This document shows, piece by piece, positions 1,066-39,261 of a DNA stretch of 64,000 nt (positions are counted from its first letter, which is position 1; the number at the start of each line of letters is the position of its first letter). The translations under genes were made by a program, and so were the position numbers. Under the pieces are notes generated by a model, which was not told the origin of the DNA, did not search any database, and saw nothing but the letters and a program-made list of their open reading frames with translations. The DNA is from Hydrangea macrophylla. Taxonomy: Eukaryota; Streptophyta; Magnoliopsida; Cornales; Hydrangeaceae. The stretch lies in contig CM066983.1 of the NCBI GenBank assembly GCA_033977485.1, positions 105,027,080 through 105,091,079 of the forward strand, in the 5' to 3' direction.

Positions 1066-1070
1066 CTTTT

Positions 1071-1674
1071 TGATGTTACCAAAAATCTGCACATCTTGGA
1101 GATTACAATTCGATCACTTCGCATGGATGATTTGATGAACCGACAAGGCTCCCCTCACTGACCTAATCACCTGAAACATAAAAGTAAAGACTTAGGGGGT
1201 TATTTTTCCCCTAAGCCTCCTCCGACGATCAAGTCAGTAAGTTGGAGAGTATGAGAAAAAATGTACATAAATAGAGAGAAAAAGAAAAATGTATCTGGCT
1301 AGAGATCGTCCCCCCTTCCCCTCAAATCCTTGATGCCAAATTTATATCTCCAGGGAGTTGTTTATAGACTGACAGTTACCCATTGCTTGGGCTATGATTA
1401 TGGGATCATGGAGGTGTTGAATGATGATCATGGTTAGGGAAATGGAGGGTCCACGTGTTGGTATTTACCCTTTAACCATAGTCCTTATTTACATGTATTT
1501 TTATATACAAGCAACTTAGTAAATGGGACTATGATCAGGCCCAAATTGAAGTGCAACTGGTTGGTTCTTGTATTGTAACTTCCCTTATAATCTAGTGTGG
1601 TACTCACACCATTACTCATATGTAGACCTGACACTTGTCAGCATATAATTAGGTAGTATTTTTGGGGCATATCA
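1071..1674 (-). repeat. Element A 3' LTR
   Basis: 604 bp repeat matching 33714-34328. Its ends are TGAT/ATCA. It is preceded by CTTTT. On its inner side lies the C-run of the (minus-strand) polypurine tract at about 1679-1691. Confidence 0.85.
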
Positions 1675-7962: not shown

Positions 7963-7967
7963 GATTT

Positions 7968-8354
7968 TGTTGGCAATAAATATCTTGTGTTGGTGTGTGC
8001 TGGGCGTGCCAGAGTCCACGTGGACTCAAAAAGAGGTTGACGTAACCTAATCTAACTTCTAAATCAAACGACCGCTAATAAATGTGATTTACTAACAGTA
8101 AATGGGTCTTCACTCTACTCTGATGCAAGTAAGTAAAACTACAAATGAAAAGAAAGGAACAAATTAATTACTGGAAATCAAGAATACCTTCAACAACATC
8201 TTCATTAATGGATTTAAATACGATTACAATCACTCGAAGCAAGCAAAGCAAGTTGAGAACAGAAACTCTCAGAAATCACTCAAGAACAAAGTATTGTTAT
8301 GAGGAAAAGATAAAAAGGTCTGCTAGAGCAGAAGTGGCGTGTGTGTTAGCCCCT
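7968..8354 (-). repeat. Element B LTR fragment (U5 side, outer left end)
   Basis: Reverse complement of 21906-22292, the R/U5 part of the full LTR. It forms the true left terminus of the insertion (TGTTGG...). It breaks off in ...TTAGCCCCT and is fused without microhomology to a pol fragment. Confidence 0.85.
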
Positions 8355-8482
8355 GGCACGAGCAACGTGTTGGACCCTAACGTCATCAAACTCTCGTAAT
8401 AATTGCAAGGCGATTGAGTTGAAAGGTAGCAACTCCCAACTCTTACACCTAAACTCACCACTTAATTGGCCAATCACTAAGT
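8355..8482 (-). pseudogene. Tat pol fragment (archaeal-type RNase H region)
   Basis: A 126 bp duplicate of 19065-19192 in the same orientation, encoding part of the second RNase H (the ARAYNDEADNLAQ neighbourhood lies just upstream in the full pol). At its right end it joins a PMD-gene fragment of opposite orientation, sharing AGTT at the junction (8480-8483). Confidence 0.75.
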
Positions 8483-9040
8483 TAGAGAAATAGAAAGCTG
8501 ATTAAAACAAGTGAAAAGGATACCTAAAACTGGTGCTCCAGTGTCTACAACCCTTATGGCCGAGGAATGATCAACCTTGCCGAGATCATGCCATCCGGTA
8601 TAAGTAACCCTCTCCCATGCTTCAGCCATTGACGCCTGTTTATCCACCATCGGAATCGCAATTGCAAAATCGGCCTCAGGCAAGGGAGGAGGACGACATT
8701 CAAATGGCTTGAAGAATTGCTCGAAGGGCATAACGGATGAATAGTCAACCGTCTGGAGGTACTTTTTGTATGCCCTTGCGGTTTTATCCTTGTGTTCCCG
8801 CTCAAGTGCCCTCAAATGCCACTTCATATCGGACCGCATGATCTCGGGATATCTCGGGTCAAATTTGAATTTAAAGAACTTCTCAAATGCAAGAACGGCG
8901 TGATACGGTGTTTTACCTTTGGAGGTCGTCGCTTTCCGTTTGTGACCTGCAACCTGAACCACAGAAGGATTAGATGAACGGGATGGTTTTCCTACAGAGG
9001 TTCCTAAAGCAGATTCAGCAGTCCCAACATCATTCCAATG
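8483..9040 (-). pseudogene. Antisense-gene fragment: middle of the PMD/coiled-coil gene
   Basis: On the minus strand this reads the part of the PMD-associated protein rich in basic residues, followed by the stretch FEKFFKFKFDPRYPE and EQFFKPFECRPPPLPE. The same sequence, shorter at its start, occurs at 15577 onward on the plus strand. It adds about 50 residues (AESALGTSVGKPSRSSNPS and GHKRKATTSKGKTPYHAV) missing from that copy. It includes the end of exon 1 and part of intron 1 (near 8483-8525). Both ends are artificial junctions, so it is not a working gene. Confidence 0.7.
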
Positions 9041-9041
9041 G

Positions 9042-10113
9042 ATGATCGATCTAATTGAGAAAGGAATGTGTCCTAAGTGCAAAGCCAGTGTGACTAATCA
9101 ACCGGACGGGCATTCGGGTTACAATCAAATATACATTGCCGAGGAAGACGTTCCTAAGACTGCATTCAGATGTCCTGGAGCAATTGGGACATTTGAATGG
9201 GTAGTAATGCCGTTCGGATTGAAGAATGCTGGGGCTACATACCAGCGAGCCATGAATGCAATATTTCATGAAATGATAGGGAAGATAATGGAAGTTTACA
9301 TCGATGATGTAGTCGTAAAATCGGCTACACAGGAAAAACACTTGGCCGATTTACGAAGATCATTCGAAAAGATGAGAGCTCATGGGTTGAAGATGAATCC
9401 TTTAAAGTGTGCCTTTGGCGTATCGGCTGGAAACTTCCTTGGTTTCCTAGTACACCAGAGAGGGATCGAAATCGACAAAAACAAAGTCCGATCCATTCAA
9501 TCAGCTGAGCCGCCGAGGAACAAGAAGGAACTACAAAGGCTGCTCGGTCAGATTAACTTTTTGCGGAGGTTCATTTCAAATTGTGCGGGACGAACACATG
9601 TTTGGTCGCCGTTACTCAAGCTTAAGGCCGAGGAAGAGTTCAAATGGGAAAGTCAGCATCAAAAGGCCTTTGAAGCTATCAAACAATATTTGTCTGAACC
9701 ACCAGTGATCATGCCTCCAAGAAGAAAAAGGCCACTTAAGTTATACTTGTCGGCCTCCGAAGAGTCTATAGCATGTATGTTGGCACAGGATAATGAATGG
9801 GGAAAAGAACAAGCTGTTTATTATTTGAGTAGAGTATTAACTCCTGTCGAGCGTAAATATACGCCGATAGAAAAATTATGCCTAGCCTTGTATTTTTCTT
9901 CACAAAAATTAAGAGTATATATGCTTCCTGTGTTGGTTTACTTGATTTGTCAGACAGACGTCATTAAATACATGTTATCAAGACCAATTATGCGTGGACG
10001 TATAGGGAAATGGACCCTAGCAATGATGGAGTTCACATTCCAATTCGTCCCACAAAGATCGGTAAAAGGCCAAGCCCTCGCTGATTTTTTGGCCGATCAC
10101 CCTTGTTTGGATG
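9042..10113 (+). pseudogene. Tat reverse transcriptase-RNase H fragment
   Basis: Plus-strand polymerase fragment. It carries RT motifs GHSGYNQI, KTAFRCPGAIGTFEWVVMPF, GLKNAGATYQRAMN and the catalytic box YIDDVVV (around residues 86-92 of the frame opening at 9042), then the connection and RNase H region (LKLYLSASEESIACMLAQ). It stops inside ...DHPCLDV, where pol normally continues to the second RNase H. The first ~20 residues (IEKGMCPKCKAS) are not the normal RT start and have no second copy in the window. Finger-domain and protease parts are absent. The frame reads on into gag-derived DNA by chance. Orientation is opposite to the main pol fragment at 17630-19954. Confidence 0.8.
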
Positions 10114-10446
10114 TCAAGCAAAGTCCGATTTCGCTGAAGTGTACATTGCCAGGTTCAAACGAGCCAAGCATCGGTGCAAAGTCATATTACCTGAAGAAGA
10201 ATTCGTTAATATAGCCCTTGGGGGACTCTCCTTTGAACTTCGGAAAAAGTTCGAGGGAATGGGATTCCGAGATCTCTTCGAACTCGCAACGCGGGCTGCC
10301 CGATATGAACGCATGCTCGAGGAAGAGCAAGAAAGGAAAAACTCGTCCAAGGGGACGTATTATAGAGATCCTAACTATGACATACATAATACAGAGTGTG
10401 AGATAAACAGTGAGATAGATGTGGCCGAGATCGTGTCAAAGCGGCC
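10114..10446 (+). pseudogene. Tat gag fragment (plus orientation)
   Basis: After ~16 untraced bases, the sequence encodes EVYIARFKRAKHRCKVILPE and LSFELRKKFEGMGFRDLFEL, identical in translation to the C-terminal part of the gag fragment at 10859-11402 (minus). It then continues further than that copy, into a charged, tail-like region (YRDPNYDIHNTECEINSE). It ends by fusion to an inverted integrase fragment at CAGTAGCTACC. Confidence 0.75.
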
Positions 10447-10858
10447 AGTAGCTACCACAATAAAACAGTGTTGGCCTGATGATGGTGGGTATATTTTACC
10501 AATCAGATCCATGGCCCAGCCCCGGAATGGCCACGGTCTAACGATTACCTGCATCTCGGTGGCTGGTACTCGTTGTATTGGCCTGTGCCTTTGGCATGAT
10601 TGGCATCCTTTGGCGTAGTCAATGCAATCTTTTAGCATGCTTGGCCAATAGTAATTATACCTCCTAAGAAGCCATTTCATTTTCGTACCAGCCTGGTGTG
10701 CACCACAGATTCCTTCGTGTACTTCGGCCATCACTTTCATGGCCTCGAGTTTGTCTAAACATCTTAACAAATTTTCATCCTTTACGCTCTTTTTAAACAA
10801 CTCACCATCCAATAAGACATACTTGACCGATGACAGCTTGGTTTTTCTCTCGGCCACT
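10447..10858 (-). pseudogene. Tat integrase N-terminal fragment
   Basis: Duplicate of 18449-18860. On the minus strand it encodes the linker after the second RNase H, the HHCC zinc-binding region of integrase (HEGICGAHQAGT...CQSCQRH) and the start of the catalytic core (GWAMDLIGKIYPPSSGQ). One residue differs from the larger copy (R for G after CQRH). It is bounded on both sides by gag pieces in opposite orientations. Confidence 0.8.
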
Positions 10859-11410
10859 GCTCTTCCTCGAGCATGCGTTCATATCGGGCAGCCCGCGTTG
10901 CGAGTTCGAAGAGATCTCGGAATCCCATTCCCTCGAACTTTTTCCGAAGTTCAAAGGAGAGTCCCCCAAGGGCTATATTAACGAATTCTTCTTCAGGTAA
11001 TATGACTTTGCACCGATGCTTGGCTCGTTTGAACCTGGCAATGTACACTTCAGCTGATTCGCTTGGTAGTTGATACAACCTTGTTAAATCGGCCATAGAG
11101 ACTTCGGGCTCTGTCCGATAAAACTGCGCGTGAAAAGCTTCCTCCATCTGATTCCAAGTGTGGAATGAATTGGGTGGTAAGTTGATATACCAGCTAAAAG
11201 CCACCCCGGTCAAGGAGTTGGGAAACAGCTTTAGTAGCATGTCCCCTTGGTGACTCACTTCCCCGCTTTGCAGCAGGAAACGACCGATGTGCTCTACTGT
11301 TGATTGCTCTCCTTCACCGGAGAACATTGTGAAGTTGGGCACCTTGTACCCTCGTGGAAGAGGCATTCTCTCAATTGCGTCACTATGCGGCCTCCTATAC
11401 ATGGGCCGCT
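10859..11410 (-). pseudogene. Tat gag fragment (capsid region, minus orientation)
   Basis: Encodes a retrotransposon gag (UBN2/Retrotrans_gag-like) core: PRGYKVPNFTMFSGEGE, FSWYINLPPNSFHTWNQMEE, the family signature around LPSESAEVYIARFKRAKH, then ELATRAARYERMLEEEQ. The N-terminal part of the same gag is probably the piece at 22325-22998. The right end is fused to an LTR fragment at GAACGTGGG (11411). Confidence 0.8.
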
Positions 11411-11606
11411 GAACGTGGGTCTTCAGAACATGCTGAGGTGGAAGAAAAAGCAGTTGCGAGAAGAAAGGAATGCGGCAGAAGTGGGATCATCACACAAATC
11501 ATGGAAGTTGATCATGGGACATAGTGGGAGCATAAATTAATATATGCCTAGAAACTAGGGGCCACGTACCCCACTACTCCATGATCCCCACTAACATGAG
11601 CGGTTG
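11411..11606 (+). repeat. Element B LTR fragment (plus orientation)
   Basis: Copy of 21667-21862 in the full LTR, from GAACGTGGGTC to ATGAGCGGTTG. It joins the PMD-gene block at GGTTG (11602-11606), a 5 nt word present at that place in both partners. Confidence 0.85.
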
Positions 11607-12494
11607 ATCATTCCTCGGCCATAAGGGTTGTAGACACTGGAGCACCAGTTTTAGGTATCCTTTTCACTTGTTTTAATCAGCTTTCTATTTCTCTAACTGA
11701 TTTCATCTCTATTCTTGTCCAGATGCTCTTCCTAGAGAGAACCCTTTTGGGGCGACCGATATTGAGTCGGATGAGGATATCCCCCTTTCAACTCGGCAAC
11801 GTCGTAACGTTGCCGCGGCTACCGTTAAATCGGCCAAGGTATTGAATTTTTCCTTGTGCTTTGCTTTCGCATATGTACAATTTTTTGACGCTAACCAATA
11901 CTTGATTTGATTTTAGGGGGCTGGTGGTGCTGCTACCAAGAAGACCGGCCAGGCGGCGATGAAGCCTCCAACCTCTCGGGCAAAGATGCCTCTGCCTCCA
12001 AAATCTCCATTGAAACCAACAATTCCAACACCCTCTTCCCAACCTGCCCCTGTGGAGACAGCCCCTCAGATGTCCTATGATCAGCTGATGGCCGAGCTTC
12101 AACGATTAAGAGGGCTGGATGAGGCCAGGCAGGCCATCCTGCGTGGTGGTGCCGATATATTATCGCCCGCAACTGACAGCACCGGTGCTGGTGATACCGT
12201 GGAGACTACAGAGGATGAGAGACCCTCTGGATCGGATCGCAATGATCCCATCGATCTCAGTGATCCTGGGACTCCTCGGGATGCTGAGGCTATGGGTGAG
12301 CAATCTATTCCTGATCATACAGCTTCCACCGATGTTTCCCATACCGAGACATCGGCCTCGCCACCGGTACCAATGCAAGTACCCGTTGTGCCACAACCCC
12401 CACCGGCGGCTTCCTCGACTAGCTCTCCCTCAGTCCAGGTAGCTTAACTCATCGACTGACCTTCTCCTGATTGCTTCGTTATTATGCTTGTGCC
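11602..12494 (+). pseudogene. Antisense-gene block: exons 2-3 of the PMD-associated gene (second copy)
   Basis: Duplicate of 15887-16779 (constant offset of 4285) with only a couple of substitutions. It holds the end of exon 1, intron 1 (11655-11722), exon 2, intron 2 (11839-11916), exon 3 (P/S/T-rich, containing MSYDQLMAELQRLRGLDEA) and the beginning of intron 3 from 12439. It is cut inside intron 3 at ...GCTTGTGCC, where it joins an LTR fragment without microhomology. Non-functional by truncation. Confidence 0.8.
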
Positions 12495-13356
12495 AATGTT
12501 GCACCACATGCCATATTTATAAACTTGCTTGCACAACCGCTCATGTTAGTGGGGATCATGGAGTAGTGGGGTACGTGGCCCCTAGTTTCTAGGCATATAT
12601 TAATTTATGCTCCCACTATGTCCCATGATCAACTTCCATGATTTGTGTGATGATCCCACTTCTGCCGCATTCCTTTCTTCTCGCAACTGCTTTTTCTTCC
12701 ACCTCAGCATGTTCTGAAGACCCACGTTCTCATTCCTACTTGACTATTTTCCAAGTGAATTTACGACCGATTGTGTTTCTCTGTGTAGCTTCCGCTGATG
12801 ATATTACTCGGCCTTCTCTTTAGTAGGAAACCTACTCGTGTCTCTCGGTCTTACCCCGATGTTGCTTCTTATCCTTACTAATCCCATGGACTGCTGTTAT
12901 CCTTCTCTGGTCCTGTTACTGCAAGATCTACAGAGAAAGTCCTCGGCCTTATCCGTTAATGCCGAGGCGTCACTGATCTTTTCCGATATCGGCCTTATTT
13001 GTTGAGATCGATATCTATATTAGAGCCGTTTTGTCATTGCCGATATTAGGACTCAAATGGTAATAAACCAATTTGGAATCGGTCCTATTTTACCGAAGGT
13101 AGGGCTGCAGTTGAGGCTACTCTGCTACTAGTCATACTAAGGTACTTCTCTGAGAACTTCATACCAATTGGTCCTCGGTCTTGATACCGATATTCTTATT
13201 TGGAACGTATCATCTTTATCAGTCGCTTGATCAAATATCGGTCTTCCTGAGTCATCGGCCTTGTCCTCGTTCATCTGCCTACGTGGTCTGGTGATAACGT
13301 CCTGAGCCCACATGACCGTCACGTGCCCTGGGAAACCCTAATTTAGGGTGTAAACA
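12495..13356 (-). repeat. Element B LTR fragment (U3 plus part of R, minus orientation)
   Basis: Reverse complement of about 21040-21901, ending in the correct LTR terminus GTAAACA at 13356. It continues directly into the polypurine tract and the upstream region of the PMD gene. This block therefore preserves the natural 3' LTR/PPT/antisense-gene order of the family (element reading leftwards). Confidence 0.85.
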
Positions 13357-13654
13357 ATGCCCCCAAAACGTCTTGTCAAACGTAGCTTCGTCAGTTTGAT
13401 GAGACGTTTTGAATTCAAATTTTAAATATCAACTGGAAATTGGCGGCGTACGGCTCCACGTGGCATCCCCCCAATAGTCCTTCCTGCCTCGTTTCTTGAA
13501 TCGAGGCGTGCCTCTTGGGAACTCGTTCCCAAATCATAATGACCCCTTTCTGTCATCTATATAAGTCACTTACCCTTGTCATTTTCCATTCCATGCTTAT
13601 TTTCTTGCCTTAATATTTTCTCGAGAAAATATTTTCTTTCCTTTTCAAATTTCC
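13357..13654 (+). promoter_or_regulatory. PPT, PPT hairpin and antisense-gene promoter
   Basis: Between the LTR end and the ATG at 13655. The C-run GCCCCC (13359-13364) is the polypurine tract on the minus strand. It abuts an 18 bp, two-mismatch inverted repeat with a 12 nt loop (13364-13411). CTATATAAG at 13557-13565 is a good TATA box about 90 bp upstream of the PMD-gene ATG, reading plus, i.e. antisense to the retrotransposon. Identical sequence lies inverted at 20742-21039. Confidence 0.65.
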
Positions 13655-13983
13655 ATGGCGTCCTCTTCTGCTCCCAGTGTTTCCCAAACCGCCGGCGCCA
13701 CCTCTCCTTCTCCTACTGCCACTGAAACTGTGCCGGTGGTTAAAACTAATGCTACCGCCGTTAAGCGAGCCCTTGAGACTATTCCTGGGCTGATAAATCC
13801 TCAGGTATTAACCCCTTCATCTTCTGGTTCAATGGGACTTGGTCCCTCCTTCGATTCTTTCCCTCCATCTTCTTTGGACCCATACTTTCCCTTAGTTGTA
13901 GATGATAACGAATTACTTTATCGTTCTTCTTCCTTTGATTGGGGTTCTCAGTACACCCCTTCCAATCCTTTGAGGAATTGGCC
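13655..13983 (+). pseudogene. Antisense PMD gene, N-terminal fragment
   Basis: Starts MASSSAPSVSQTAGATSPSP and runs through NPLRNWP, then is cut at GCC (13981-13983), a 3 nt microhomology with a pol integrase fragment. The longer versions are on the minus strand at 19955-20741 and 14411-15574. One substitution (A for T in PTATETV/PTTTETV) separates this copy from the 20741 copy. The start codon is supported by the TATA box 90 bp upstream. Confidence 0.75.
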
Positions 13984-14192
13984 GAGGTATCAAGATCCTT
14001 AATTCAACGCCGTATTTTGCTCAAGGGAATGGACAGGCCGAATCATCCAATAAAACAATCAAAGGAATAATCGAAAAAATGGTGGAAGGCAATCCTAGGA
14101 TATGGCACGAGCTATTATCTGAGGCTTTGTGGGCATATCGGACATCTAAAAGATCAGCAACAAACATAACTCCTTTCATGCTGACTTACGGT
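13981..14192 (+). pseudogene. Tat integrase fragment (plus orientation)
   Basis: Inverted copy of a stretch of 18070-18280. It encodes AQGNGQAESSNKTIKGIIEK, with the catalytic glutamate of the DDE triad, and VEGNPRIWHELLSEALWAYR. Apart from small differences (CAACGCC for the CAATGCC expected from the main pol) it is identical. It is joined at 14192/14193 to an LTR fragment. Confidence 0.8.
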
Positions 14193-14410
14193 GACTCAAA
14201 TGGTAATAAACCAATTTGGAATCGGTCCTATTTTACCGAAGTTAGGGCTGCAGTTGAGGCTACTCTGCTACTAGTCATACTAAGGTACTTCTCTGAGAAC
14301 TTCATACCAATTGGTCCTCGGTCTTGATACCGATATTCTTATTTGGAACGTATCATCTTTATCAGTCGCTTGATCAAATATCGGTCTTCCTGAGTCATCG
14401 GCCTTGTCCT
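14193..14410 (-). repeat. Element B LTR fragment (U3, minus orientation)
   Basis: Third copy of the U3 stretch GACTCAAATGGTAATAAACC...GGCCTTGTCCT also found at 13049-13267 and 24481-24698. Both ends are abrupt junctions. Confidence 0.85.
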
Positions 14411-15574
14411 TGACCGCCCTGACATGGAACGGTTGAGGGTCCGAAAAGGGGGAATAGGAATAAGTTGTTTTAACCCGAGTTGGCGGGCTAAAGCAGGAGC
14501 ATTATAATATTCCACCCCACACTTGTTATTGCGAGGGGGAATAACAGGACTATACAATAAATCTCGGCCAACTAGGAAGCTGGCCCAGATTGCTTCATGC
14601 TCTTTTGTCTCAGCCTCAGGAGCCTGGCCAGGACTGTGGAGAAGCCAGCTCGGACATCTAAGTCGAGGATGAAAAGGAAGGAACTGCTGGGGGGATCGGT
14701 TACCCATATGTTCGTAGAAGAAGGAAAAAAGGTGCTCAAAAGAAAGGCCCATGGGGCTGATACCGGCAAAATGAAAAGCAAAGGCCGAGGAATGTTCGGG
14801 TAGAATGGTGGGATCGAAGTGGTCAACTGAGCATTTCTCAGGAAAATAAGATTGGAGCCAACATTGAAGGAGCCAGAGGGCTCCTCCCGAGTTTTTAAAA
14901 TCGGAAAAAATAAGTTCAAGAATACCCCGGTAGAGATGAGAAAGGGCGAGAGGAGCAAGAGCAAGTCTTCGACCCTCGGCCAACGCAAGAGCAATATGAG
15001 TATATTCTTGAGTAACGGCGTATGAGGCCGAGCAAAACACAAAGCGGTTCAGCCAGTAGACCAGGAAAGCAATGTGTTCCTGGTCAGAAACTTCCCCTTG
15101 TCCCATACAGGCTACTATAAAAGGACCAAAGCCAGTAACAACCCTGGAACCCTTGCCCGATGTGGTCCTAGGGTATTCGAATTCGAGATTGGAGGAAAGG
15201 TTGAGAGTGACTTCCTCACCGTGAGCGGAAAGACCGGTAAGGAAGCAAACATCCTGAATTGTCGGACTCATGAGACCGCAACGAAAAAAGAAAGCATTGG
15301 CCGAAGTCGACCAGAAGAATAAAGAAGAAAAGAAGAGAGGTTTGTCAAGAAGGAACTTCTCACGGCTCAGCATAATGGCATCATAGATGTCAAGGGCCTT
15401 CCACAAGTCCCTTTTCACCTCCACCAATCGGTCTACCCAAGAAATCCAATCAGGAGAAGGAATAGGCCAATTCCTCAAAGGATTGGAAGGGGTGTACTGA
15501 GAACCCCAATCAAAGGAAGAAGAACGATAAAGTAATTCGTTATCATCTACAACTAAGGGAAAGTATGGGTCCAA
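14411..15574 (-). pseudogene. Antisense-gene block carrying the plant mobile domain (most complete copy)
   Basis: The minus-strand frame (14339-15697, 452 residues) includes DPYFPLVVDDNELLYRSSSF, WISWVDRLVEVKRDLWKALD and then a plant mobile domain (PMD, aminotransferase-like) core: FFWSTSANAFFFRCGLMSPT, IQDVCFLTGLSAHGEEV, and the C-terminal half with GILELIFSDFKNSGGALWLL and RCPSWLLHSPGQAPE. The first ~40 residues come from an artificial junction at 15573-15576 and the last ~20 from LTR DNA, so neither end is native. PMD proteins (MAIN/MAIL family) are nuclear plant proteins, and the domain is also known from transposons. In this family the gene runs antisense to gag-pol. Function inside the element is unknown. 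Confidence 0.75.
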
Positions 15575-15575
15575 A

Positions 15576-17497
15576 TTTGAGAAGTTCTTTAAATTCAAAT
15601 TTGACCCGAGATATCCCGAGATCATGCGGTCCGATATGAAGTGGCATTTGAGGGCACTTGAGCGGGAACACAAGGATAAAACCGCAAGGGCATACAAAAA
15701 GTACCTCCAGACGGTTGACTATTCATCCGTTATGCCCTTCGAGCAATTCTTCAAGCCCTTTGAATGTCGTCCTCCTCCCTTGCCTGAGGCCGATTTTGCA
15801 ATTGCGATTCCGATGGTGGATAAACAGGCGTCAATGGCTGAAGCATGGGAGAGGGTTACTTATACCGGATGGCATGATCTCGGCAAGGTTGATCATTCCT
15901 CGGCCATAAGGGTTGTAGACACTGGAGCACCAGTTTTAGGTATCCTTTTCACTTGTTTTAATCAGCTTTCTATTTCTCTAACTGATTTCATCTCTATTCT
16001 TGTCCAGATGCTCTTCCTAGAGAGAACCCTTCTGGGGCGACCGATATTGAGTCGGATGAGGATATCCCCCTTTCAACTCGGCAACGTCGTAACGTTGCCG
16101 CGGCTACCGTTAAATCGGCCAAGGTATTGAATTTTTCCTTGTGCTTTGCTTTCGCATATGTACAATTTTTTGACGCTAACCAATGCTTGATTTGATTTTA
16201 GGGGGCTGGTGGTGCTGCTACCAAGAAGACCGGCCAGGCGGCGATGAAGCCTCCAACCTCTCGGGCAAAGATGCCTCTGCCTCCAAAATCTCCATTGAAA
16301 CCAACAATTCCAACACCCTCTTCCCAACCTGCCCCTGTGGAGACAGCCCCTCAGATGTCCTATGATCAGCTGATGGCCGAGCTTCAACGATTAAGAGGGC
16401 TGGATGAGGCCAGGCAGGCCATCCTGCGTGGTGGTGCCGATATATTATCGCCCGCAACTGACAGCACCGGTGCTGGTGATACCGTGGAGACTACAGAGGA
16501 TGAGAGACCCTCTGGATCGGATCGCAATGATCCCATCGATCTCAGTGATCCTGGGACTCCTCGGGATGCTGAGGCTATGGGTGAGCAATCTATTCCTGAT
16601 CATACAGCTTCCACCGATGTTTCCCATACCGAGACATCGGCCTCGCCACCGGTACCAATGCAAGTACCCGTTGTGCCACAACCCCCACCGGCGGCTTCCT
16701 CGACTAGCTCTCCCTCAGTCCAGGTAGCTTAACTCATCGACTGACCTTCTCCTGATTGCTTCGTTATTATGCTTGTGCCTAATAGTTGTATTTTTGTGCA
16801 GGTTCCTAGTTCTTTTCCAATTCCTGACTTTAGTTCGGTTACTTCCATTGACGCCTTCTTCGCTCTTCTTGACCCTGAGAAGCTTCTTCAGGCCGAACCC
16901 ACGGTAGCCCAGGCCAGCGCTGCTCCCTCCACTGCTGAATATCAAAGGGCTGAGGAATGGTTCAGGACTACCGTTCAGAGGAAACTTTCCCAGCTTCCTG
17001 ATTTTGAAGAATTTCATTCGGCTATGGGCCTTTTGCTCTCTTGTCTGAACATATCCGATGAGATGAAGGCCGATCTACGGAGTTTGCAGGTTAGATTACC
17101 CGATTATCTTAATAGGCACCGGGCAGCCACCAAGGTCGTGTCTGAGATTGAGGAGAAATCCCGAGAGCGAAAAGCCCGAGTAGACAGTCTTGCGGCCTGC
17201 AAGGTTCAATATGGGACTTCTAAAGTCATGAAGGAGCGCCTTCTGCAGGAGAAAACAAGGCTCGAGTCTGAGCTGGCCAAGATTCAGAAAGAACTAGACA
17301 ATGCCGATGCTGGCCTGGCTTTATCTGAGAATGCTATTCTTGATATCGGCCGATCCGCGCGAGAGCATGTCGAGGTTTTGACTAGGACTGCTGCAGAAGC
17401 GAGTCGATGGGAGGCCGACAAGACTAACGCCGAGAAGGAACTGGAATACCTAGATCAAGCTTGGGAGGAGCTTAGACTTAAATTTGCTAGGAAATAA
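15576..17497 (+). CDS. Antisense PMD-associated gene, C-terminal exons with three introns
   Basis: This is the longest intact part of the family's extra gene, on the plus strand, antisense to the adjoining pol. Exon 1 (to 15939) encodes FKFDPRYPE...EQFFKPFECRPPPLPE. Introns with GT-AG borders lie at 15940-16007, 16124-16201 and 16724-16801. Removing them keeps one frame from 15624 to the stop at 17497: exon 2 is acidic (ESDEDIP), exon 3 is P/S/T-rich with MSYDQLMAELQRLRGLDEA, and exon 4 is a long charged coiled coil (heptad-like, many K/E/L) ending LKFARK. The phase consistency of three introns is strong evidence for a genuinely spliced gene. Because it is antisense to the genomic RNA, its introns would survive retrotransposition. 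In this copy the PMD-encoding 5' part is detached (junction at 15573-15576), so the copy is broken. The role is unknown. Confidence 0.7.
15940..16007 (+). other. Intron 1 of the antisense PMD-associated gene
   Basis: 68 bp. Donor TTTTAG|GTATCC, acceptor CTTGTCCAG|AT, pyrimidine-rich before the acceptor. Phase 1 junction, frame preserved. Confidence 0.75.
16124..16201 (+). other. Intron 2 of the antisense PMD-associated gene
   Basis: 78 bp. Donor GCCAAG|GTATTG, acceptor TTGATTTTAG|GGG, T-rich throughout. The exon before it (116 bp plus one carried base) is exactly 39 codons. Confidence 0.75.
16724..16801 (+). other. Intron 3 of the antisense PMD-associated gene
   Basis: 78 bp. Donor GTCCAG|GTAGCT, acceptor TTTTTGTGCAG|GTT. 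Without splicing the frame stops at GTAGCTTAA. With splicing it continues in frame into the coiled-coil exon. Confidence 0.75.
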
Positions 17498-17505
17498 TGT
17501 AATAC

Positions 17506-17536
<31 letters not shown>

Positions 17537-17629
17537 GTATGGCCGTTACAGAATGTGCGGCTAATATCATGTAACAAGTTGTATATTAATAAAACATTAA
17601 TAAAAATGAGAATTTATATCATTCATTCT
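17498..17629 (+). terminator. 3' end of antisense gene and intergenic junction with pol
   Basis: Contains a run of about 29 T residues (17508-17536) and, downstream, AATAAAA-type poly(A) signals (17587-17604, TTAATAAAACATTAATAAAA) for the plus-strand gene. The minus-strand pol stop lies at 17630. The two genes therefore converge tail to tail within ~130 bp. This is the only place where the natural pol/antisense-gene order of the family is preserved. Confidence 0.6.
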
Positions 17630-19954
17630 TCATTCATTTATTGTTACTGACTCCCAAAGGGATGGCACATATTGCTTTAAATATTTTCCATTTATCGGTC
17701 TTGCATGCATCTCACCATCTAAGTCCATTAACCGATATGCACCCCCCTTGATGACCGATGTCACCTGGAATGGTCCTTCCCATTTAGCTGACCATTTTCC
17801 ATATCGGGCATTCTTTTCACCCAGTGGTAACACAGCTTTCCAAACAAGGTCTCCCTCGCCAAACGACTTATGTTTGACCCTTTTGTTGTATGCCCGAGTA
17901 ACCCTATTCTTTTGTGCCTTGATACAATCCAAAGCTTTGAGACGAACGTCATCAAGCTCTTCCAACTCGGCCAACATTGCTTCGGTGTATTCACCTGATT
18001 CAAGGCCGAGTTGGAATGCTCGTCTTGTTGACCGGACGGTTACTTCCATAGGCAGCATTGCGTCATGACCGTAAGTCAGCATGAAAGGAGTTATGTTTGT
18101 TGCTGATCTTTTAGATGTCCGATATGCCCACAAAGCCTCAGATAATAGCTCGTGCCATATCCTAGGATTGCCTTCCACCATTTTTTCGATTATTCCTTTG
18201 ATTGTTTTATTGGATGATTCGGCCTGTCCATTCCCTTGAGCAAAATACGGCATTGAATTAAGGATCTTGATACCTCGGCTTTCTGCAAATGCCTTAACTT
18301 CATCCCCCGTGAAGACCGACCCTTGATCTGCTGTAATTGTTTCGGGAAGTCCAAATCGGTGAATTATGTGTTCACTAATGAATTTGATCACATATGCTTG
18401 ATTTACCGACTTTGCTGGTACTGCCTCCACCCATTTGGTAAAGTAATCAGTAGCTACCACAATAAAACAGTGTTGGCCTGATGATGGTGGGTATATTTTA
18501 CCAATCAGATCCATGGCCCAGCCCCGGAATGGCCACGGTCTAACGATTACCTGCATCTCGGTGGCTGGTACTCGTTGTATTGGCCCGTGCCTTTGGCATG
18601 ATTGGCATCCTTTGGCGTAGTCAATGCAATCTTTTAGCATGCTTGGCCAATAGTAATTATACCTCCTAAGAAGCCATTTCATTTTCGTACCAGCCTGGTG
18701 TGCACCACAGATTCCTTCGTGTACTTCGGCCATCACTTTCATGGCCTCGAGTTTGTCTAAACATCTTAACAAATTTTCATCCTTTACGCTCTTTTTAAAC
18801 AACTCACCATCCAATAAGACATACTTGACCGATGACAGCTTGGTTTTTCTCTCGGCCACTCTGTTTGGGCATAAGAGGCATTTAATTATTGGATCTCTCC
18901 AATCGTGATCATCCGTGATCACCGAGAAAATTTCTGTTGCCATTTCTCGTTGCCTTACTGAAGGCAAGATTCTCCTTTGCACTCTTATCAATTTTTCGCT
19001 ATCGGTTACCTCCAATTTTGTTCCCGATGCGACTTGTGCTAGATTATCGGCCTCGTCATTATAGGCACGAGCAACGTGTTGGACCCTAACGTCATCAAAC
19101 TCTCGTAATAATTGCAAGGCGATTGAGTTGAAAGGTAGCAACTCCCAACTCTTACACCTAAACTCACCACTTAATTGGCCAATCACTAAGTTTGAATCGC
19201 CGATGATATGGATTGCTGATATATCCATTTCGGCCATGATTTCAAGGCCGATGATCAGTGCTTCGTATTCTGCCTGGTTACTAGAGCATTCAAACTCTAG
19301 TTTAAACGAGAAGACGGTTTTCCGTTTTCTTGGTGATATTACAATTATCCCTGCCCCTGCGCCGTCGTCATTTTTGGATCCGTCAAATATTAACGTCCAA
19401 GGGGTCAGAGAAATTGTTGATAACAGAGTGGAATCAATTGCCTCATTAAGTTCTGGACCGACATCCAAACAAGGGTGATCGGCCAAAAAATCAGCGAGGG
19501 CTTGGCCTTTTACCGATCTTTGTGGGACGAATTGGAATGTGAACTCCATCATTGCTAGGGTCCATTTCCCTATACGTCCACGCATAATTGGTCTTGATAA
19601 CATGTATTTAATGACGTCTGTCTGACAAATCAAGTAAACCAACACAGGAAGCATATATACTCTTAATTTTTGTGAAGAAAAATACAAGGCTAGGCATAAT
19701 TTTTCTATCGGCGTATATTTACGCTCGACAGGAGTTAATACTCTACTCAAATAATAAACAGCTTGTTCTTTTCCCCATTCATTATCCTGTGCCAACATAC
19801 ATGCTATAGACTCTTCGGAGGCCGACAAGTATAACTTAAGTGGCCTTTTTCTTCTTGGAGGCATGATCACTGGTGGTTCAGACAAATATTGTTTGATAGC
19901 TTCAAAGGCCTTTTGATGCTGACTTTCCCATTTGAACTCTTCCTCGGCCTTAAG
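17630..19954 (-). pseudogene. Tat pol: RNase H, archaeal-type RNase H, integrase
   Basis: An open frame of ~775 residues on the minus strand, missing protease and RT. In order: the end of the RT/RNase H region (LKLYLSASEESIACMLAQ, roughly residues 50-70); a second RNase H with TLIFDGSKNDDGAGAGI (about 197-213) and ARAYNDEADNLAQVASG; the integrase HHCC zinc module (HEGICGAHQ...CQSCQRH, about 425-470); and the DDE core with the aspartates in AMDLIGK and ADQGSVF and the glutamate in AESSNKT. A C-terminal integrase tail (KSFGEGDLVWKAVLP, KWEGPFQVTSVIKGGAYRL) ends at YVPSLWESVTINE. Two RNase H domains are the hallmark of the Tat lineage. The apparent N-terminus (MCFARPHTPLL) comes from the PMD gene through a 14 nt microhomology, CTTGAGTAACGGCG (19955-19968). 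Confidence 0.85.
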
Positions 19955-20741
19955 CTTGAGTAACGGCGTATGAGGCCGAGCAAAACACAAAGCGGTTCAG
20001 CCAGTAGACCAGGAAAGCAATGTGTTCCTGGTCAGAAACTTCCCCTTGTCCCATACAGGCTACTATAAAAGGACCAAAGCCAGTAACAACCCTGGAACCC
20101 TTGCCCGATGTGGTCCTAGGGTATTCGAATTCGAGATTGGAGGAAAGGTTGAGAGTGACTTCCTCACCGTGAGCGGAAAGACCGGTAAGGAAGCAAACAT
20201 CCTGAATTGTCGGACTCATGAGACCGCAACGAAAAAAGAAAGCATTGGCCGAAGTCGACCAGAAGAATAAAGAAGAAAAGAAGAGAGGTTTGTCAAGAAG
20301 GAACTTCTCACGGCTCAGCATAATGGCATCATAGATGTCAAGGGCCTTCCACAAGTCCCTTTTCACCTCCACCAATCGGTCTACCCAAGAAATCCAATCA
20401 GGAGAAGGAATAGGCCAATTCCTCAAAGGATTGGAAGGGGTGTACTGAGAACCCCAATCAAAGGAAGAAGAACGATAAAGTAATTCGTTATCATCTACAA
20501 CTAAGGGAAAGTATGGGTCCAAAGAAGATGGAGGGAAAGAATCGAAGGAGGGACCAAGTCCCATTGAACCAGAAGATGAAGGGGTTAATACCTGAGGATT
20601 TATCAGCCCAGGAATAGTCTCAAGGGCTCGCTTAACGGCGGTAGCATTAGTTTTAACCACCGGCACAGTTTCAGTGGTAGTAGGAGAAGGAGAGGTGGCG
20701 CCGGCGGTTTGGGAAACACTGGGAGCAGAAGAGGACGCCAT
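19955..20741 (-). pseudogene. Antisense PMD gene, N-terminal half
   Basis: Minus-strand frame starting at the natural ATG (20741, MASSSAPSVSQTAGATSPSP) through a proline/serine-rich leader (NPQVLTPSSSGSMGL), then DPYFPLVVDDNELLYRSSSF and the first half of the PMD (FFWSTSANAFFFRCGLMSPT, IQDVCFLTGLSAHGEEV). It is cut at YAVTQ, where the 14 nt microhomology joins it to pol. Here the PMD gene is in its natural position beside the PPT and LTR (20742-22292), antisense to the element reading rightwards. Confidence 0.8.
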
Positions 20742-21039
20742 GGAAATTTGAAAAGGAAAGAAAATATTTTCTCGAGAAAATATTAAGGCAAGAAAATAAG
20801 CATGGAATGGAAAATGACAAGGGTAAGTGACTTATATAGATGACAGAAAGGGGTCATTATGATTTGGGAACGAGTTCCCAAGAGGCACGCCTCGATTCAA
20901 GAAACGAGGCAGGAAGGACTATTGGGGGGATGCCACGTGGAGCCGTACGCCGCCAATTTCCAGTTGATATTTAAAATTTGAATTCAAAACGTCTCATCAA
21001 ACTGACGAAGCTACGTTTGACAAGACGTTTTGGGGGCAT
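20742..21039 (+). promoter_or_regulatory. PMD-gene promoter (minus), PPT hairpin and polypurine tract (plus)
   Basis: Inverted equivalent of 13357-13654. On the minus strand it holds the TATA box (CTATATAAG) of the PMD gene. On the plus strand, the two arms CAAAACGTCT (20985-20994) and AGACGTTTTG (21023-21032) extend inward with TCAAAC/GTTTGA into one 18 bp stem with two mismatches and a 12 nt loop. The 3' arm runs directly into the polypurine tract TTTTGGGGGCAT (to 21039). The LTR starts at 21040. Confidence 0.7.
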
Positions 21040-22292
21040 TGTTTACACCCTAAATTAGGGTTTCCCAGGGCACGTGACGGTCATGTGGGCTCAGGACGTT
21101 ATCACCAGACCACGTAGGCAGATGAACGAGGACAAGGCCGATGACTCAGGAAGACCGATATTTGATCAAGCGACTGATAAAGATGATACGTTCCAAATAA
21201 GAATATCGGTATCAAGACCGAGGACCAATTGGTATGAAGTTCTCAGAGAAGTACCTTAGTATGACTAGTAGCAGAGTAGCCTCAACTGCAGCCCTAACTT
21301 CGGTAAAATAGGACCGATTCCAAATTGGTTTATTACCATTTGAGTCCTAATATCGGCAATGACAAAACGGCTCTAATATAGATATCGATCTCAACAAATA
21401 AGGCCGATATCGGAAAAGATCAGTGACGCCTCGGCATTAACGGATAAGGCCGAGGACTTTCTCTGTAGATCTTGCAGTAACAGGACCAGAGAAGGATAAC
21501 AGCAGTCCATGGGATTAGTAAGGATAAGAAGCAACATCGGGGTAAGACCGAGAGACACGAGTAGGTTTCCTACTAAAGAGAAGGCCGAGTAATATCATTA
21601 GCGGAAGCTACACAGAGAAACACAATCGGTCGTAAATTCACTTGGAAAATAGTCAAGTAGGAATGAGAACGTGGGTCTTCAGAACATGCTGAGGTGGAAG
21701 AAAAAGCAGTTGCGAGAAGAAAGGAATGCGGCAGAAGTGGGATCATCACACAAATCATGGAAGTTGATCATGGGACATAGTGGGAGCATAAATTAATATA
21801 TGCCTAGAAACTAGGGGCCACGTACCCCACTACTCCATGATCCCCACTAACATGAGCGGTTGTGCAAGCAAGTTTATAAATATGGCATGTGGTGCAACAT
21901 TTTAAAGGGGCTAACACACACGCCACTTCTGCTCTAGCAGACCTTTTTATCTTTTCCTCATAACAATACTTTGTTCTTGAGTGATTTCTGAGAGTTTCTG
22001 TTCTCAACTTGCTTTGCTTGCTTCGAGTGATTGTAATCGTATTTAAATCCATTAATGAAGATGTTGTTGAAGGTATTCTTGATTTCCAGTAATTAATTTG
22101 TTCCTTTCTTTTCATTTGTAGTTTTACTTACTTGCATCAGAGTAGAGTGAAGACCCATTTACTGTTAGTAAATCACATTTATTAGCGGTCGTTTGATTTA
22201 GAAGTTAGATTAGGTTACGTCAACCTCTTTTTGAGTCCACGTGGACTCTGGCACGCCCAGCACACACCAACACAAGATATTTATTGCCAACA
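21040..22292 (+). repeat. Element B family: the only complete LTR (plus orientation)
   Basis: 1253 bp, TGTTTACACC...TTGCCAACA, with correct TG/CA ends, PPT before it and PBS after it. A TATA box TATAAATA lies at 21874-21881, so R probably begins near 21905. U3 contains many CGGCC/GCCGA and GATATCGG-like words. As arranged (PMD gene, PPT, LTR, PBS, gag) this LTR serves as both 3' and 5' LTR, as in a one-LTR circle or a tandem pair. Confidence 0.9.
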
Positions 22293-22297
22293 ATTTT

Positions 22298-22316
22298 TGG
22301 CACGCCCGGTGGGACC
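22298..22316 (+). promoter_or_regulatory. Primer binding site of element B family
   Basis: TGGCACGCCCGGTGGGACC begins five bases after the LTR end, the expected place for a minus-strand primer site. The 3' terminal TGG complements the CCA of a tRNA. I do not assign the tRNA. Confidence 0.75.
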
Positions 22317-22324
22317 AGTGTCAA

Positions 22325-22998
22325 ATGGCCGCAAAAGGAACACGATCCAAGGGGATTTCCCAAGAGGCAGGCTCACGTGAGCCTCTCTTGGACCCTATCA
22401 TAGAGTCCGTTACTGAACCTGTTATAGATCCGGTCATCAGCTCGGTAGCAAGTCAGGCCGATTTATCTAATATGAGTAACCACTTGATGGGGATATTCAA
22501 CCAGCGCTTGGCTGAGATGTCCATCAAGACAGACCAAACCTTCACCCAAGTGGGTGAAATGCTCCGAGAAATGAGGAAATGGAAGGACCACCCGACGGAT
22601 GATCCTCCACAACTTTCTATCCCACCAACTTCCCTTTCTCGGGTTGGGTTGGGGGCAAGCCAGACTGCACCTTCTTCTTCCCAGAATGAAAAATATGTTA
22701 CACCACCAAGAAGGGATGGCAAAGAGATTTTAGGAGAAACTGGGAACCCACCCCGGGGAGCGGCCAGACCAAGCGTCACCATTACAGAACCAGGAATCGG
22801 TCTAAACGGACAGGATTCGGACCCACTTTGGGGAAGAATGAACCCGTTATTCGGAGACAATGTAGTCACCGAAGAAGAACAAATTTGGAATGAGAGAATC
22901 AGACTAGAGCCTGAGGCCGGTAGGAGAAGGGTTAATCCAGCCCAAACGGTGAGGGTTGACCGAGAACAGATCGCTGAAGTCATTAATCAAGACTTCGG
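22325..22998 (+). pseudogene. Tat gag, N-terminal fragment
   Basis: ATG at 22325 (MAAKGTRSKGISQEAGSREP), chosen because it is the first ATG after the PBS. A longer frame from 22241 begins inside the LTR. The product is hydrophilic, with a run of VTEPVIDPVIS, then MSNHLMGIFNQRLAEMSIKT (helical), a P/S-rich middle and an R-rich tail (EPEAGRRRVNPAQTVRVD). It lacks the capsid core, which sits in the pieces at 10859-11410 and 10114-10446. It is truncated at FGG by fusion to an inverted integrase fragment at 23004. Confidence 0.7.
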
Positions 22999-23003
22999 CG
23001 GCC

Positions 23004-23325
23004 GGTCTCCCTCGCCAAACGACTTATGTTTGACCCTTTTGTTGTATGCCCGAGTAACCCTATTCTTTTGTGCCTTGATACAATCCAAAGCTTTGAGACG
23101 AACGTCATCAAGCTCTTCCAACTCGGCCAACATTGCTTCGGTGTATTCACCTGATTCAAGGCCGAGTTGGAATGCTCGTCTTGTTGACCGGACGGTTACT
23201 TCCATAGGCAGCATTGCGTCATGACCGTAAGTCAGCATGAAAGGAGTTATGTTTGTTGCTGATCTTTTAGATGTCCGATATGCCCACAAAGCCTCAGATA
23301 ATAGCTCGTGCCATATCCTAGGATT
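23004..23325 (-). pseudogene. Tat integrase C-terminal fragment
   Basis: Copy of about 17843-18164. The minus strand reads RIWHELLSEALWAYRTSKRS, DAMLPMEVTVRSTRRAFQLG and NKRVKHKSFGEGD. It joins a PMD-gene fragment at GCCTTCCAC (23326-23334), a 9 nt word shared by both partners. Confidence 0.8.
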
Positions 23326-23847
23326 GCCTTCCACAAGTCCCTTTTCACCTCCACCAATCGGTCTACCCAAGAAATCCAATCAGGAGAAGGAATAGGCCAA
23401 TTCCTCAAAGGATTGGAAGGGGTGTACTGAGAACCCCAATCAAAGGAAGAAGAACGATAAAGTAATTCGTTATCATCTACAACTAAGGGAAAGTATGGGT
23501 CCAAAGAAGATGGAGGGAAAGAATCGAAGGAGGGACCAAGTCCCATTGAACCAGAAGATGAAGGGGTTAATACCTGAGGATTTATCAGCCCAGGAATAGT
23601 CTCAAGGGCTCGCTTAACGGCGGTAGCATTAGTTTTAACCACCGGCACAGTTTCAGTGGCAGTAGGAGAAGGAGAGGTGGCGCCGGCGGTTTGGGAAACA
23701 CTGGGAGCAGAAGAGGACGCCATGGAAATTTGAAAAGGAAAGAAAATATTTTCTCGAGAAAATATTAAGGCAAGAAAATAAGCATGGAATGGAAAATGAC
23801 AAGGGTAAGTGACTTATATAGATGACAGAAAGGGGTCATTATGATTT
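23326..23847 (-). pseudogene. Antisense PMD gene: N-terminal fragment plus its promoter
   Basis: Third partial copy of the start of the PMD gene (ATG at 23723 on the minus strand, reading MASSSAPSVSQ...KRDLWKA), followed at 23724-23847 by its upstream region with the TATA box. It matches the A allele (PTATETV) of 13655 rather than the T allele at 20741. Confidence 0.8.
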
Positions 23848-23853
23848 TACAAC

Positions 23854-23879
23854 TTAGTAAGGATAAGAAGCAACATCGG
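23854..23879 (+). repeat. 26 bp LTR scrap
   Basis: TTAGTAAGGATAAGAAGCAA and the following CATCGG match the LTR at 21515-21540. Six untemplated or untraced bases (TACAAC, 23848-23853) precede it. It ends in ATCGG (23875-23879), which is also the start of the next pol piece. It is one of the smallest recognisable blocks in the mosaic. Confidence 0.7.
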
Positions 23880-24033
23880 TTACCTCCAATTTTGTTCCCG
23901 ATGCGACTTGTGCTAGATTATCGGCCTCGTCATTATAGGCACGAGCAACGTGTTGGACCCTAACGTCATCAAACTCTCGTAATAATTGCAAGGCGATTGA
24001 GTTGAAAGGTAGCAACTCCCAACTCTTACACCT
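23875..24033 (-). pseudogene. Tat pol fragment (second RNase H)
   Basis: Copy of about 19001-19159, overlapping the piece at 8355-8480. The minus strand encodes IRCKSWELLPFNSIALQLLR and HVARAYNDEADNLAQVASGT. Confidence 0.8.
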
Positions 24034-24369
24034 GATCATCGAGCTTCGCGGGGGCCGATGCTAACTCATCCAGATTGATGTAATCGTCAAGTATTTCTTC
24101 CTGACACTCGTCGATGACTTCGGCCATACTAGCCGATGATGCTAATGCCTGCTTGTCCGCCAAAAATGCCTGCATCCTAGCCACACTGGCCTGTACGGCC
24201 TGTGCCCTTCTATGCTTCAGTAATAATTGGTTCTGGTCCATTGAAGGTATGTTCCTCGTCGTTATCAACCGGCGTAATCACAATGGATGGCCGGTCAAGT
24301 TGTCTGTATACCTGTATTAACTGGTTCTTCTGCTCCCTCACCATGGTGGCCGATTTGGGCCTTCCATTC
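24034..24369 (-). pseudogene. Unassigned Tat fragment, probably gag or gag-pol linker
   Basis: Present once in the window. The minus-strand frame encodes a helical, A/Q-rich stretch (LLLKHRRAQAVQASVARMQA, then FLADKQALASSASMAEVIDE) and an acidic one (CQEEILDDYINLDELASAP). Its position between pol and LTR pieces and similar base composition (CGGCC words) place it in the same family. No motif identifies it. It might also be another exon of the extra gene. Confidence 0.4.
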
Positions 24370-24788
24370 AGTCCTCGGCCTTATCCGTTAATGCCGAGGC
24401 GTCACTGATCTTTTCCGATATCGGCCTTATTTGTTGAGATCGATATCTATATTAGAGCCGTTTTGTCATTGCCGATATTAGGACTCAAATGGTAATAAAC
24501 CAATTTGGAATCGGTCCTATTTTACCGAAGTTAGGGCTGCAGTTGAGGCTACTCTGCTACTAGTCATACTAAGGTACTTCTCTGAGAACTTCATACCAAT
24601 TGGTCCTCGGTCTTGATACCGATATTCTTATTTGGAACGTATCATCTTTATCAGTCGCTTGATCAAATATCGGTCTTCCTGAGTCATCGGCCTTGTCCTC
24701 GTTCATCTGCCTACGTGGTCTGGTGATAACGTCCTGAGCCCACATGACCGTCACGTGCCCTGGGAAACCCTAATTTAGGGTGTAAACA
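24370..24788 (-). repeat. Element B LTR fragment (U3, outer right end)
   Basis: Reverse complement of about 21040-21458. It ends GGTGTAAACA, the true LTR terminus, and is followed by GATTT (24789-24793), identical to the five bases before 7968. Confidence 0.9.
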
Positions 24789-24895
24789 GATTTCATTTGA
24801 AAAGAAATTGCTAATTTATAGGAGAAAAACTTGGTATCAAAATTTCATAATCAGGCTGGTTCATTCATATATATATATATATATATATACTAGTA

Positions 24896-36999: not shown

Positions 37000-37365
37000 G
37001 TCTTTAATCTGCAAGATCTTCTATGTGTTCCTTCTGTGTAATACCCCGTATTTTTAATAAATATTTAATGCAGAGAGATTCTATATACTTCATTTGACCA
37101 TTCAAGAAATTTCATATTCGATCGATCGAAGCTAGTTCGAGCGATCGAGACCCTTCAGTTCAAGCGATCGAACCCTTTTCGAGCGATCGAAACCCTACCG
37201 ACATAAATTTAATACGTGGTCCCCACTTCAATCGATCGAACCCTTTTTCAATCGATCTAACTGACCGATCTGAGTTCAATCGATTGAGCATCCTTCGATC
37301 GATCGAGAATAGAAATATCAGAATACCAGTTTTGCGCAAATGCTGCCACCTGCACCCCCACCCTC

Positions 37366-37374
37366 TCTATATAT
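37366..37374 (+). promoter_or_regulatory. TATA box of element C LTR
   Basis: CTATATATAC preceded by a C-rich stretch (CACCCCCACCCTCT) and followed by a transcribed-looking leader ending at the GTGAGT hairpin. The identical site is in the 3' LTR near 45664-45672. Confidence 0.55.
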
Positions 37375-37665
37375 ACACTGCATTCGTGTATGTTATGTGT
37401 TTGCTGAACCTTGTGCTTAAGAGAGAGTTGAGAGTGTGTATGCTTGGGTATATATTATATACATACATCCATATCTATATATATATATACACACACCACA
37501 TATATATATATACTCAGCAGAGAAGAAGAAGAAGAAGAAGAAGAAGAAGAAGAAGAACAAGAGGGAAGGAGACAGAGAGAGACAGAGACAAGGCAGAGGA
37601 GAAAGAGAGGCCGCCATTAAAGTTTCGGAGCTAAAGCTTACCCAAACGCACCTTAACGACTTTTT

Positions 37666-37682
37666 GTGAGTTCCAAACTCAC
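37666..37682 (+). promoter_or_regulatory. Candidate splice donor in a perfect hairpin
   Basis: GTGAGTTCCAAACTCAC: a 7 bp perfect stem with a 3 nt loop, whose left arm GTGAGT is a consensus plant splice donor. It follows a purine-rich leader after the TATA box. Equivalent hairpins with different loops are in the solo LTR (58327-58345) and in element D (56321-56339, minus). Splicing is inference. Confidence 0.5.
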
Positions 37683-39246: not shown

Positions 39247-39261
39247 TGGTATCAGAGCACC
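39247..39261 (+). promoter_or_regulatory. Element C primer binding site (initiator tRNA-Met)
   Basis: TGGTATCAGAGCACC seven bases after the LTR end. Confidence 0.9.

Follow-up and report, generated by a model that had tools for sequence, protein, structure and literature searches.

A shuffled Ty3/gypsy retrotransposon in Hydrangea macrophylla with genuine termini and a target-site duplication

A 64,000-nucleotide stretch of the Hydrangea macrophylla genome (C2:105027080-105091079 of a 2.22-Gb genome in 19 contigs; hereafter the window) carries a single 16.8-kb insertion at 7968-24788 that is composed of 22 blocks of one Ty3/gypsy long terminal repeat (LTR) retrotransposon family, with 21 junctions between them. 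Shuffling most probably came first and integrase-mediated insertion second. This order is based on the correct outer ends, the target duplication, ends no older than the interior, tested junctions none of which recurs, a chain free of host DNA apart from 27 nt of filler, and another shuffled element elsewhere in the genome. As to how the molecule arose, we consider it probable that its chain was built by joining fragments of complementary DNA (cDNA) and was then inserted by integrase in one event.

Ends, blocks and copies of the insertion

The insertion is flanked by a perfect 5-bp duplication, GATTT, read directly from the sequence at 7963-7967 on the left and 24789-24793 on the right, and its outer termini are the family's own LTR U3 start and U5 end, as integrase-mediated insertion demands. 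An earlier reading made from the letters alone (the sequence-only reading) had recognised both the termini and the duplication. Its TGTTGG and GTAAACA motifs are indeed true LTR ends, with one refinement. The complete LTR inside the insertion has the polypurine tract before it and the primer binding site after it, which places the element in the minus orientation. TGTTGG at 7968 represents the U5 end in reverse complement (at its other occurrence U5 leads into the primer binding site from 22293), and GTAAACA at 24788 likewise represents the U3 start (at its other occurrence U3 comes after the polypurine tract, which ends at 21039). Instead of two complete, near-identical flanking LTRs there are two non-overlapping pieces, the left one being 387 bp from the U5 side and the right one 419 bp from the U3 side, and the sole complete LTR is internal (21040-22292). 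Over these 806 terminal bp there are 0 differences from the internal LTR, where 0.5 were expected, so that there is no sign of the ends being older than the interior.

An ordinary 13.5-kb copy in the same genome, at C16:40651763-40665264, supplies the native coordinates (N1-13502) used here. All window blocks are 98.5-100% identical to it, and comparison with it resolved the 22 blocks, 10 in the native plus and 12 in the native minus orientation, in agreement with the earlier count of more than 20 blocks in both directions. Counted from the block strands, 12 of the 21 joins are inverted. The strand of the plant mobile domain (PMD) gene, which the sequence-only reading listed among the repeated blocks, does not by itself show inversion, because in the native order this gene lies in antisense direction between integrase and the 3' LTR; the inverted joins are there all the same. 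Self-comparison of the window revealed numerous repeats, both direct and inverted, 26 to 1489 bp long and 99.5-100% identical, at the places where repeated blocks had been described. Matches such as 569 identical bp, or 1489 bp with 3 differences, exclude an origin of these repeats by chance. The insertion lacks 2498 of the 10,996 internal native bases; other native stretches are present up to four times, within the two to four copies proposed earlier; 18 positions that count five copies are put down to copies overlapping at microhomologies. The only sequence foreign to the family is the 27 nt of filler, distributed over four joins.

The repeated blocks differ at 8 of 12,318 copy-sites (sites with at least two copies), which bears out the claim that copies are a handful of bases apart. 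Each of the 8 differences is private to one copy, the other window copy matching the readable related copies (1 to 7 of 7), and 5 of them are C-to-T or its complement. Because the differences are private to single copies, the blocks were probably identical when they were formed and derived from a single parental sequence. At substitution rates between 7e-9 and 1.3e-8 per site and year, the shuffled molecule would be about 50,000-93,000 years old, with a wide interval.

Twenty of the 21 junction strings are single-copy in the window (the 8990|8994 join was outside the test set), and in the self-comparison no listed repeat of at least 22 bp crosses any window junction, which argues against stepwise duplication in place. 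Genome-wide uniqueness was examined for the first two joins: a 241-bp query spanning both had its only full-length match at the window, among the 40 candidates scored of 1571.

A second, differently shuffled member of the family lies at C8:67901996-67918574. It comprises 10 blocks and 9 junctions between true U3 and U5 ends, flanked by a perfect CCTCG duplication of the same 5-bp length. Six of its joins are filler-free with 0-1 bp homology, and three carry 4-, 43- and 79-bp filler; the two longer fillers contain 15-23-bp copies of the element, one 19-bp unit occurring twice. Its duplicated blocks are 98.6-100% identical, so that the C8 element is probably older than the window element, and one block pair with 6 differences in 424 bp suggests that it had two parents. 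Together with the ends, the target duplication, the identical 806 bp and the 20 unrepeated junctions, this second case supports the proposal of the sequence-only reading that the shuffling came before integration.

Junction chemistry and the making of the chain

The overlaps at joins 1 to 21 are, in bp of homology or nt of filler, 0, 4, filler 3, 0, filler 17, 2, 1, 2, 5, 0, 3, 0, filler 1, 1, 14, 0, 9, filler 6, 5, 0 and 0; base-level alignments were made for 13 of the 21. The 17 filler-free joins share 46 bp of homology in total, compared with ~0.68 bp per random join in the element (P ~4e-10), and the excess persists without the 14- and 9-bp cases (P 0.002). Short homologies, blunt joins or templated filler are marks of end joining, and such marks are present in the window and C8 elements; template switching can leave the same marks. 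Two further candidate regularities were rejected. GGCC lies within 12 bp of 9 of 20 window junctions (on an earlier 20-junction list; 11 matches against 3.4 at random, 0 of 5000 draws), with P 0.08 at a distance of 8 bp, and the motif was picked post hoc and was not replicated at C8 (3 matches against 1.4, P 0.16). Breakpoints shared by the two elements amount to one exact match (pairs within 2 bp, P 0.27, not significant). That match, a break at N419 common to window 24370 and C8:67907759, could be chance.

Of the three routes to a pre-integration chain that had been proposed, end joining fits best, template switching is possible and a serious rival, and self-integration does not agree with the junctions. 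Joining of double-stranded cDNA fragments is favoured by the junction chemistry, that is, microhomology or blunt joins with patchwork filler, and by the many inversions. A single young Ty3/gypsy element, or its circles, would have supplied the starting material, namely several fragments of double-stranded cDNA together with incomplete products. End joining, either blunt or mediated by microhomology and leaving short filler, would have linked these end to end into a linear chain of 16.8 kb with one genuine U3 terminus and, at the other end, one genuine U5 terminus. As integrase recognises such termini, the chain would then have been inserted like a normal element.

Several points weigh against this account. 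The structure was read from assembled sequence alone, and the join chemistry of the two elements differs, being microhomology-rich in the window and nearly blunt at C8. The C8 element, which keeps its whole 5' LTR and N1-5291 in order on the left, could, if taken alone, also be explained by later replacement of the middle of an ordinary element. That a single molecule simply shattered is not borne out: native fragment ends meet no more often than by chance (2 pairs within 20 bp against a random mean of 0.73, P 0.17), some internal segments are moreover present four times, and we rejected this source. The enrichment of 3'-side fragments that a substrate of partial minus-strand cDNAs would predict is visible in depth and not significant (P 0.08-0.40 depending on the method, for a previous internal set of 17 pieces whose gaps were guessed). 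Furthermore, two blocks end 5 bp from each other at the predicted R start, as expected of strong-stop transfer, host DNA is absent from the chain, as it would be inside a particle, and reverse transcriptase switching could yield the same chain.

The last of these points defines the strongest rival, to which we assign a minor share of the probability: the chain would be a product of reverse transcriptase itself, which inside the particle would have changed template many times, from RNA to minus-strand DNA and back. Block 1 ends at LTR position 867 (window 21906), 31 bp past the start of the TATAAATA box (TATA) at 21875, block 11 ends 5 bp away, and the two corresponding joins, 8354|8355 and 12494|12495, have zero homology. 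Jumps of reverse transcriptase at template ends need none. Block 16, in which polypurine tract, LTR, primer binding site and gag follow each other as in a one-LTR circle, a tandem or a second-strand-transfer intermediate, could come from a plus strand begun upstream of the polypurine tract, followed by normal second-strand transfer; it could also be a copy of a one-LTR circle or of a tandem like the one on C16. Template switching accounts for block 16, the R-start break and the lack of host DNA as well as end joining does, or better, and LTR recombination in Onsen mostly fits the first template switch in R (PMC5668417). On the other hand, the 12 inverted joins demand that the enzyme move repeatedly between minus-strand DNA templates and RNA or plus-strand ones, the C8 joins are nearly all blunt or filled with short patches, the R-start break is absent at C8 (nearest LTR breaks 775 and 904), and the transcript start is predicted from the TATA box alone.

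It is improbable that an ordinary element or solo LTR already occupied the site and that a later internal break was patched with same-family cDNA or circle fragments. In yeast and plants retrotransposon cDNA is known to patch breaks, the terminal blocks might both belong to one LTR, and the ordered left side of the C8 element agrees with such a history. Against this, the terminal blocks are identical to the internal LTR, no foreign DNA beyond the filler entered the window element, and extensive same-family patching would be needed at two insertions, sparing the ends and the duplication both times.

Self-integration of cDNA by integrase, giving inversions and deletions before insertion, fits poorly, as do stepwise rearrangement in place and assembly error. 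Rearranged one-LTR circles of fly testes are ascribed to the self-integration route in PMC12132167, but it joins an LTR terminus to internal sequence, and 0 of 21 window junctions do so: every internal LTR terminus found keeps its native polypurine tract or primer binding site, the only near miss being a C8 block that stops 18 bp short of the U3 terminus beside filler. We therefore regard it as very improbable. An assembly or library artefact is scarcely credible either; many near-identical repeats could mislead an assembler, and the structure is known from the assembly, but precise 5-bp duplications at both outer ends of two loci, a window free of N, private single-copy differences and base-precise junctions all speak against it.

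Returning to end joining before integration, a wider possibility, which we raise tentatively and hold somewhat doubtful, is that chromothripsis-like cDNA assembly is a recurrent fate in this family, in that random fragment chains with one U3 and one U5 end integrate and form a continuing source of scrambled elements. If the favoured account is true, the window holds a natural record of extrachromosomal cDNA rejoining with 21 sequence-resolved joins, integrase accepts scrambled cargo between a U3 and a U5 end, and shuffling in the particle versus joining in the nucleus becomes a question answerable by join chemistry and mutants. Annotation methods based on two LTRs may overlook such insertions.

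Block order and lineage of the family

Block strands are given here in native sense. On the left, block 1 (7968-8354, -, N13502-13116; self-comparison and C16 mapping) is the U5 end of the LTR and breaks at the predicted transcript start (R start). It meets block 2 (8355-8483, -, N6791-6663), from the second RNase H, without homology, and block 2 overlaps by 4 bp with block 3 (8480-8990, +, N9861-10371), the C-terminal part of the antisense PMD region. Three nt of filler precede block 4 (8994-9103, +, N3143-3252), a 110-bp piece from between gag and the protease-reverse transcriptase linker that the self-comparison missed. Block 5 (9104-10115, +, N5384-6395), assigned by Pfam and C16 mapping, holds reverse transcriptase-RNase H and is separated by 17 nt of filler (10116-10132) from a gag piece, block 6 (10133-10447, +, N2336-2650). 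The N-part of integrase follows in block 7 (10446-10858, -, N7407-6995), then gag again in block 8 (10858-11412, -, N2532-1978; Pfam and C16 mapping), a U3 piece of the LTR in block 9 (11411-11606, +, N628-823) and the PMD C region in block 10 (11602-12494, -, N9957-9065). Block 11 (12495-13983, -, N13111-11623) runs through PMD start, polypurine tract and U3, and breaks 5 bp upstream of the predicted R start.

To its right lie integrase in block 12 (13981-14192, +, N7576-7787), a U3 piece in block 13 (14193-14410, -, N307-90) and, after 1 nt of filler, the PMD domain in block 14 (14412-15575, +, N10570-11733; Pfam and C16 mapping). The longest native run is block 15 (15575-19968, -, N10269-5876), with RNase H, second RNase H, integrase and the PMD C region. 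It shares 14 bp of homology with block 16 (19955-23003, +, N11165 through the LTR to N1964), which contains PMD N, the polypurine tract, the complete LTR, the primer binding site and gag N. Block 17 (23004-23334, -, N8007-7677) is the C part of integrase and has 9 bp of homology to the PMD N piece of block 18 (23326-23847, +, N11554-12075). After 6 nt of filler, block 19 (23854-23879, +, N476-501) is a U3 piece of 26 bp, followed by second RNase H in block 20 (23875-24033, -, N6854-6696), the protease-reverse transcriptase linker in block 21 (24034-24369, -, N4890-4555) and the U3 start of the LTR in block 22 (24370-24788, -, N419-1), the right terminus. For comparison, the C8 element reads N1-5291 (+), 12197-12668 (+), 7594-5145 (-), 12582-7853 (-), 9350-9116 (-), 664-19 (-), 4732-4309 (-), 904-250 (-), 8630-7561 (-) and 775-1253 (+).

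Pfam domains in the window element are reverse transcriptase, RNase H, second RNase H, integrase, gag and PMD (RVT_3, rve and PMD being the Pfam names behind the lineage test). A second RNase H is a mark of the Tat/Retand lineage, and the family has both this domain and an antisense open reading frame (ORF) upstream of the 3' LTR. The pol fragment has its top protein relative in Cornus florida (63% identity over 94%), and among the 120 matches listed the named sources of pol relatives are all eudicots. A homologue search with the gag N-part gave none at E 0.01 among 633 candidates, and the ORF at 8477-9097 had no Pfam match. The stretch N1620-1908 is common to the window's parent and the C16 copy, and had no match at six other mapped loci (C2, C3, C5, C7:12.7, C8 and C17). 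Antisense ORFs between pol and the 3' LTR are known in Retand-type elements, which, like the present family, are Ty3/gypsy (PMC11963269 and PMC7264820); they differ in that the ORF of the window family holds a plant mobile domain, and neither 'PMD' nor 'mobile domain' occurs in those two texts.

Known rearranged elements and other family loci

Truncated, tandem and chimeric elements are already known. In the Triticeae, rice and maize, complex LTR retrotransposons ascribed to template switching occur as tandems with target duplications (Sabot and Schulman 2007, PMC1950507). The window element resembles them as an aberrant molecule made before integration, with a flanking 5-bp duplication and an internal complete LTR that is bordered by polypurine tract and primer binding site. 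Those complexes have two same-direction cores and three LTRs, whereas two collinear cores between near-identical outer LTRs are absent here, the window showing 22 blocks in both directions, 12 inverted joins, incomplete non-overlapping outer LTRs and unrelated junctions.

In Arabidopsis ddm1 mutants, truncated and chimeric EVD circles and insertions occur, for which the authors propose polymerase-theta end joining as a source of structural variants (PMC10462705). There too retrotransposon DNA was broken and rejoined, and two truncated EVD insertions have clear target duplications; in contrast to the window element, these are truncations or an EVD-gene chimera, and all truncated insertions have two LTRs. 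Fly retrotransposons form rearranged one-LTR and zero-LTR circles (preprint PMC12132167). These likewise consist of fragmented retrotransposon DNA rejoined off the chromosome, the zero-LTR forms being read as direct ligation of degraded cDNA, but they are circular and not inserted, and the one-LTR forms are read as self-integration. Onsen recombines between family members in bursts, during reverse transcription and with most LTR events at R; unlike the window element, the recombination is between members, and no inversion or block shuffle is described in the accessible text (PMC5668417). No such many-block shuffled structure is described in the excerpts of PMC12312487 and PMC12273906. Judged by titles and abstract openings, a many-block shuffled insertion with a target duplication was not found in searches of the open-access literature. 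Going by the title of a 2023 Nature paper by Yang et al., alternative end joining is said to act in the formation of retrotransposon circles.

The family survey, based on the best LTR matches, comprised 41 matches at 20 loci, window included. Twelve other loci were fetched, several of them picked for odd LTR spacing (C16:40.65, C2:44.74, C8:67.90, C7:99.4, C3:37.4, C7:12.7, C7:83.3, C19:22.19, C14:38.3, C17:87.9, C18:81.8 and C5:74.7); the remaining seven were judged by LTR spacing (12.22-12.27 kb) and second RNase H strand only, so that an internal change preserving both would escape. Shuffled loci number 2 of 20, or 1 of 19 without the window, which is not a genome-wide rate.

Other arrangements were seen among these loci. 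At C16:40651763-40667393 the sequence continues past the 3' LTR with another primer binding site and with gag as far as N3382, and has no matching 5-bp flank at that far end; this is a tandem or partial complex element. At C7:99412139-99430981 two elements lie tail to tail, N8202-13503 (+) and, within ~5 bp, a full-length one (-), and the outer ends have no matching flank; it is a possible inverted dimer. At C7:12712233-12738500 one element of the family is inserted in another at N4710-4714, with a 5-bp duplication, CTATG. The window itself contains, at 37037-47537, an LTR retrotransposon with 2203-bp LTRs that are 99.5% identical, a TTCTG duplication and a 1185-aa ORF at 41726-45283.

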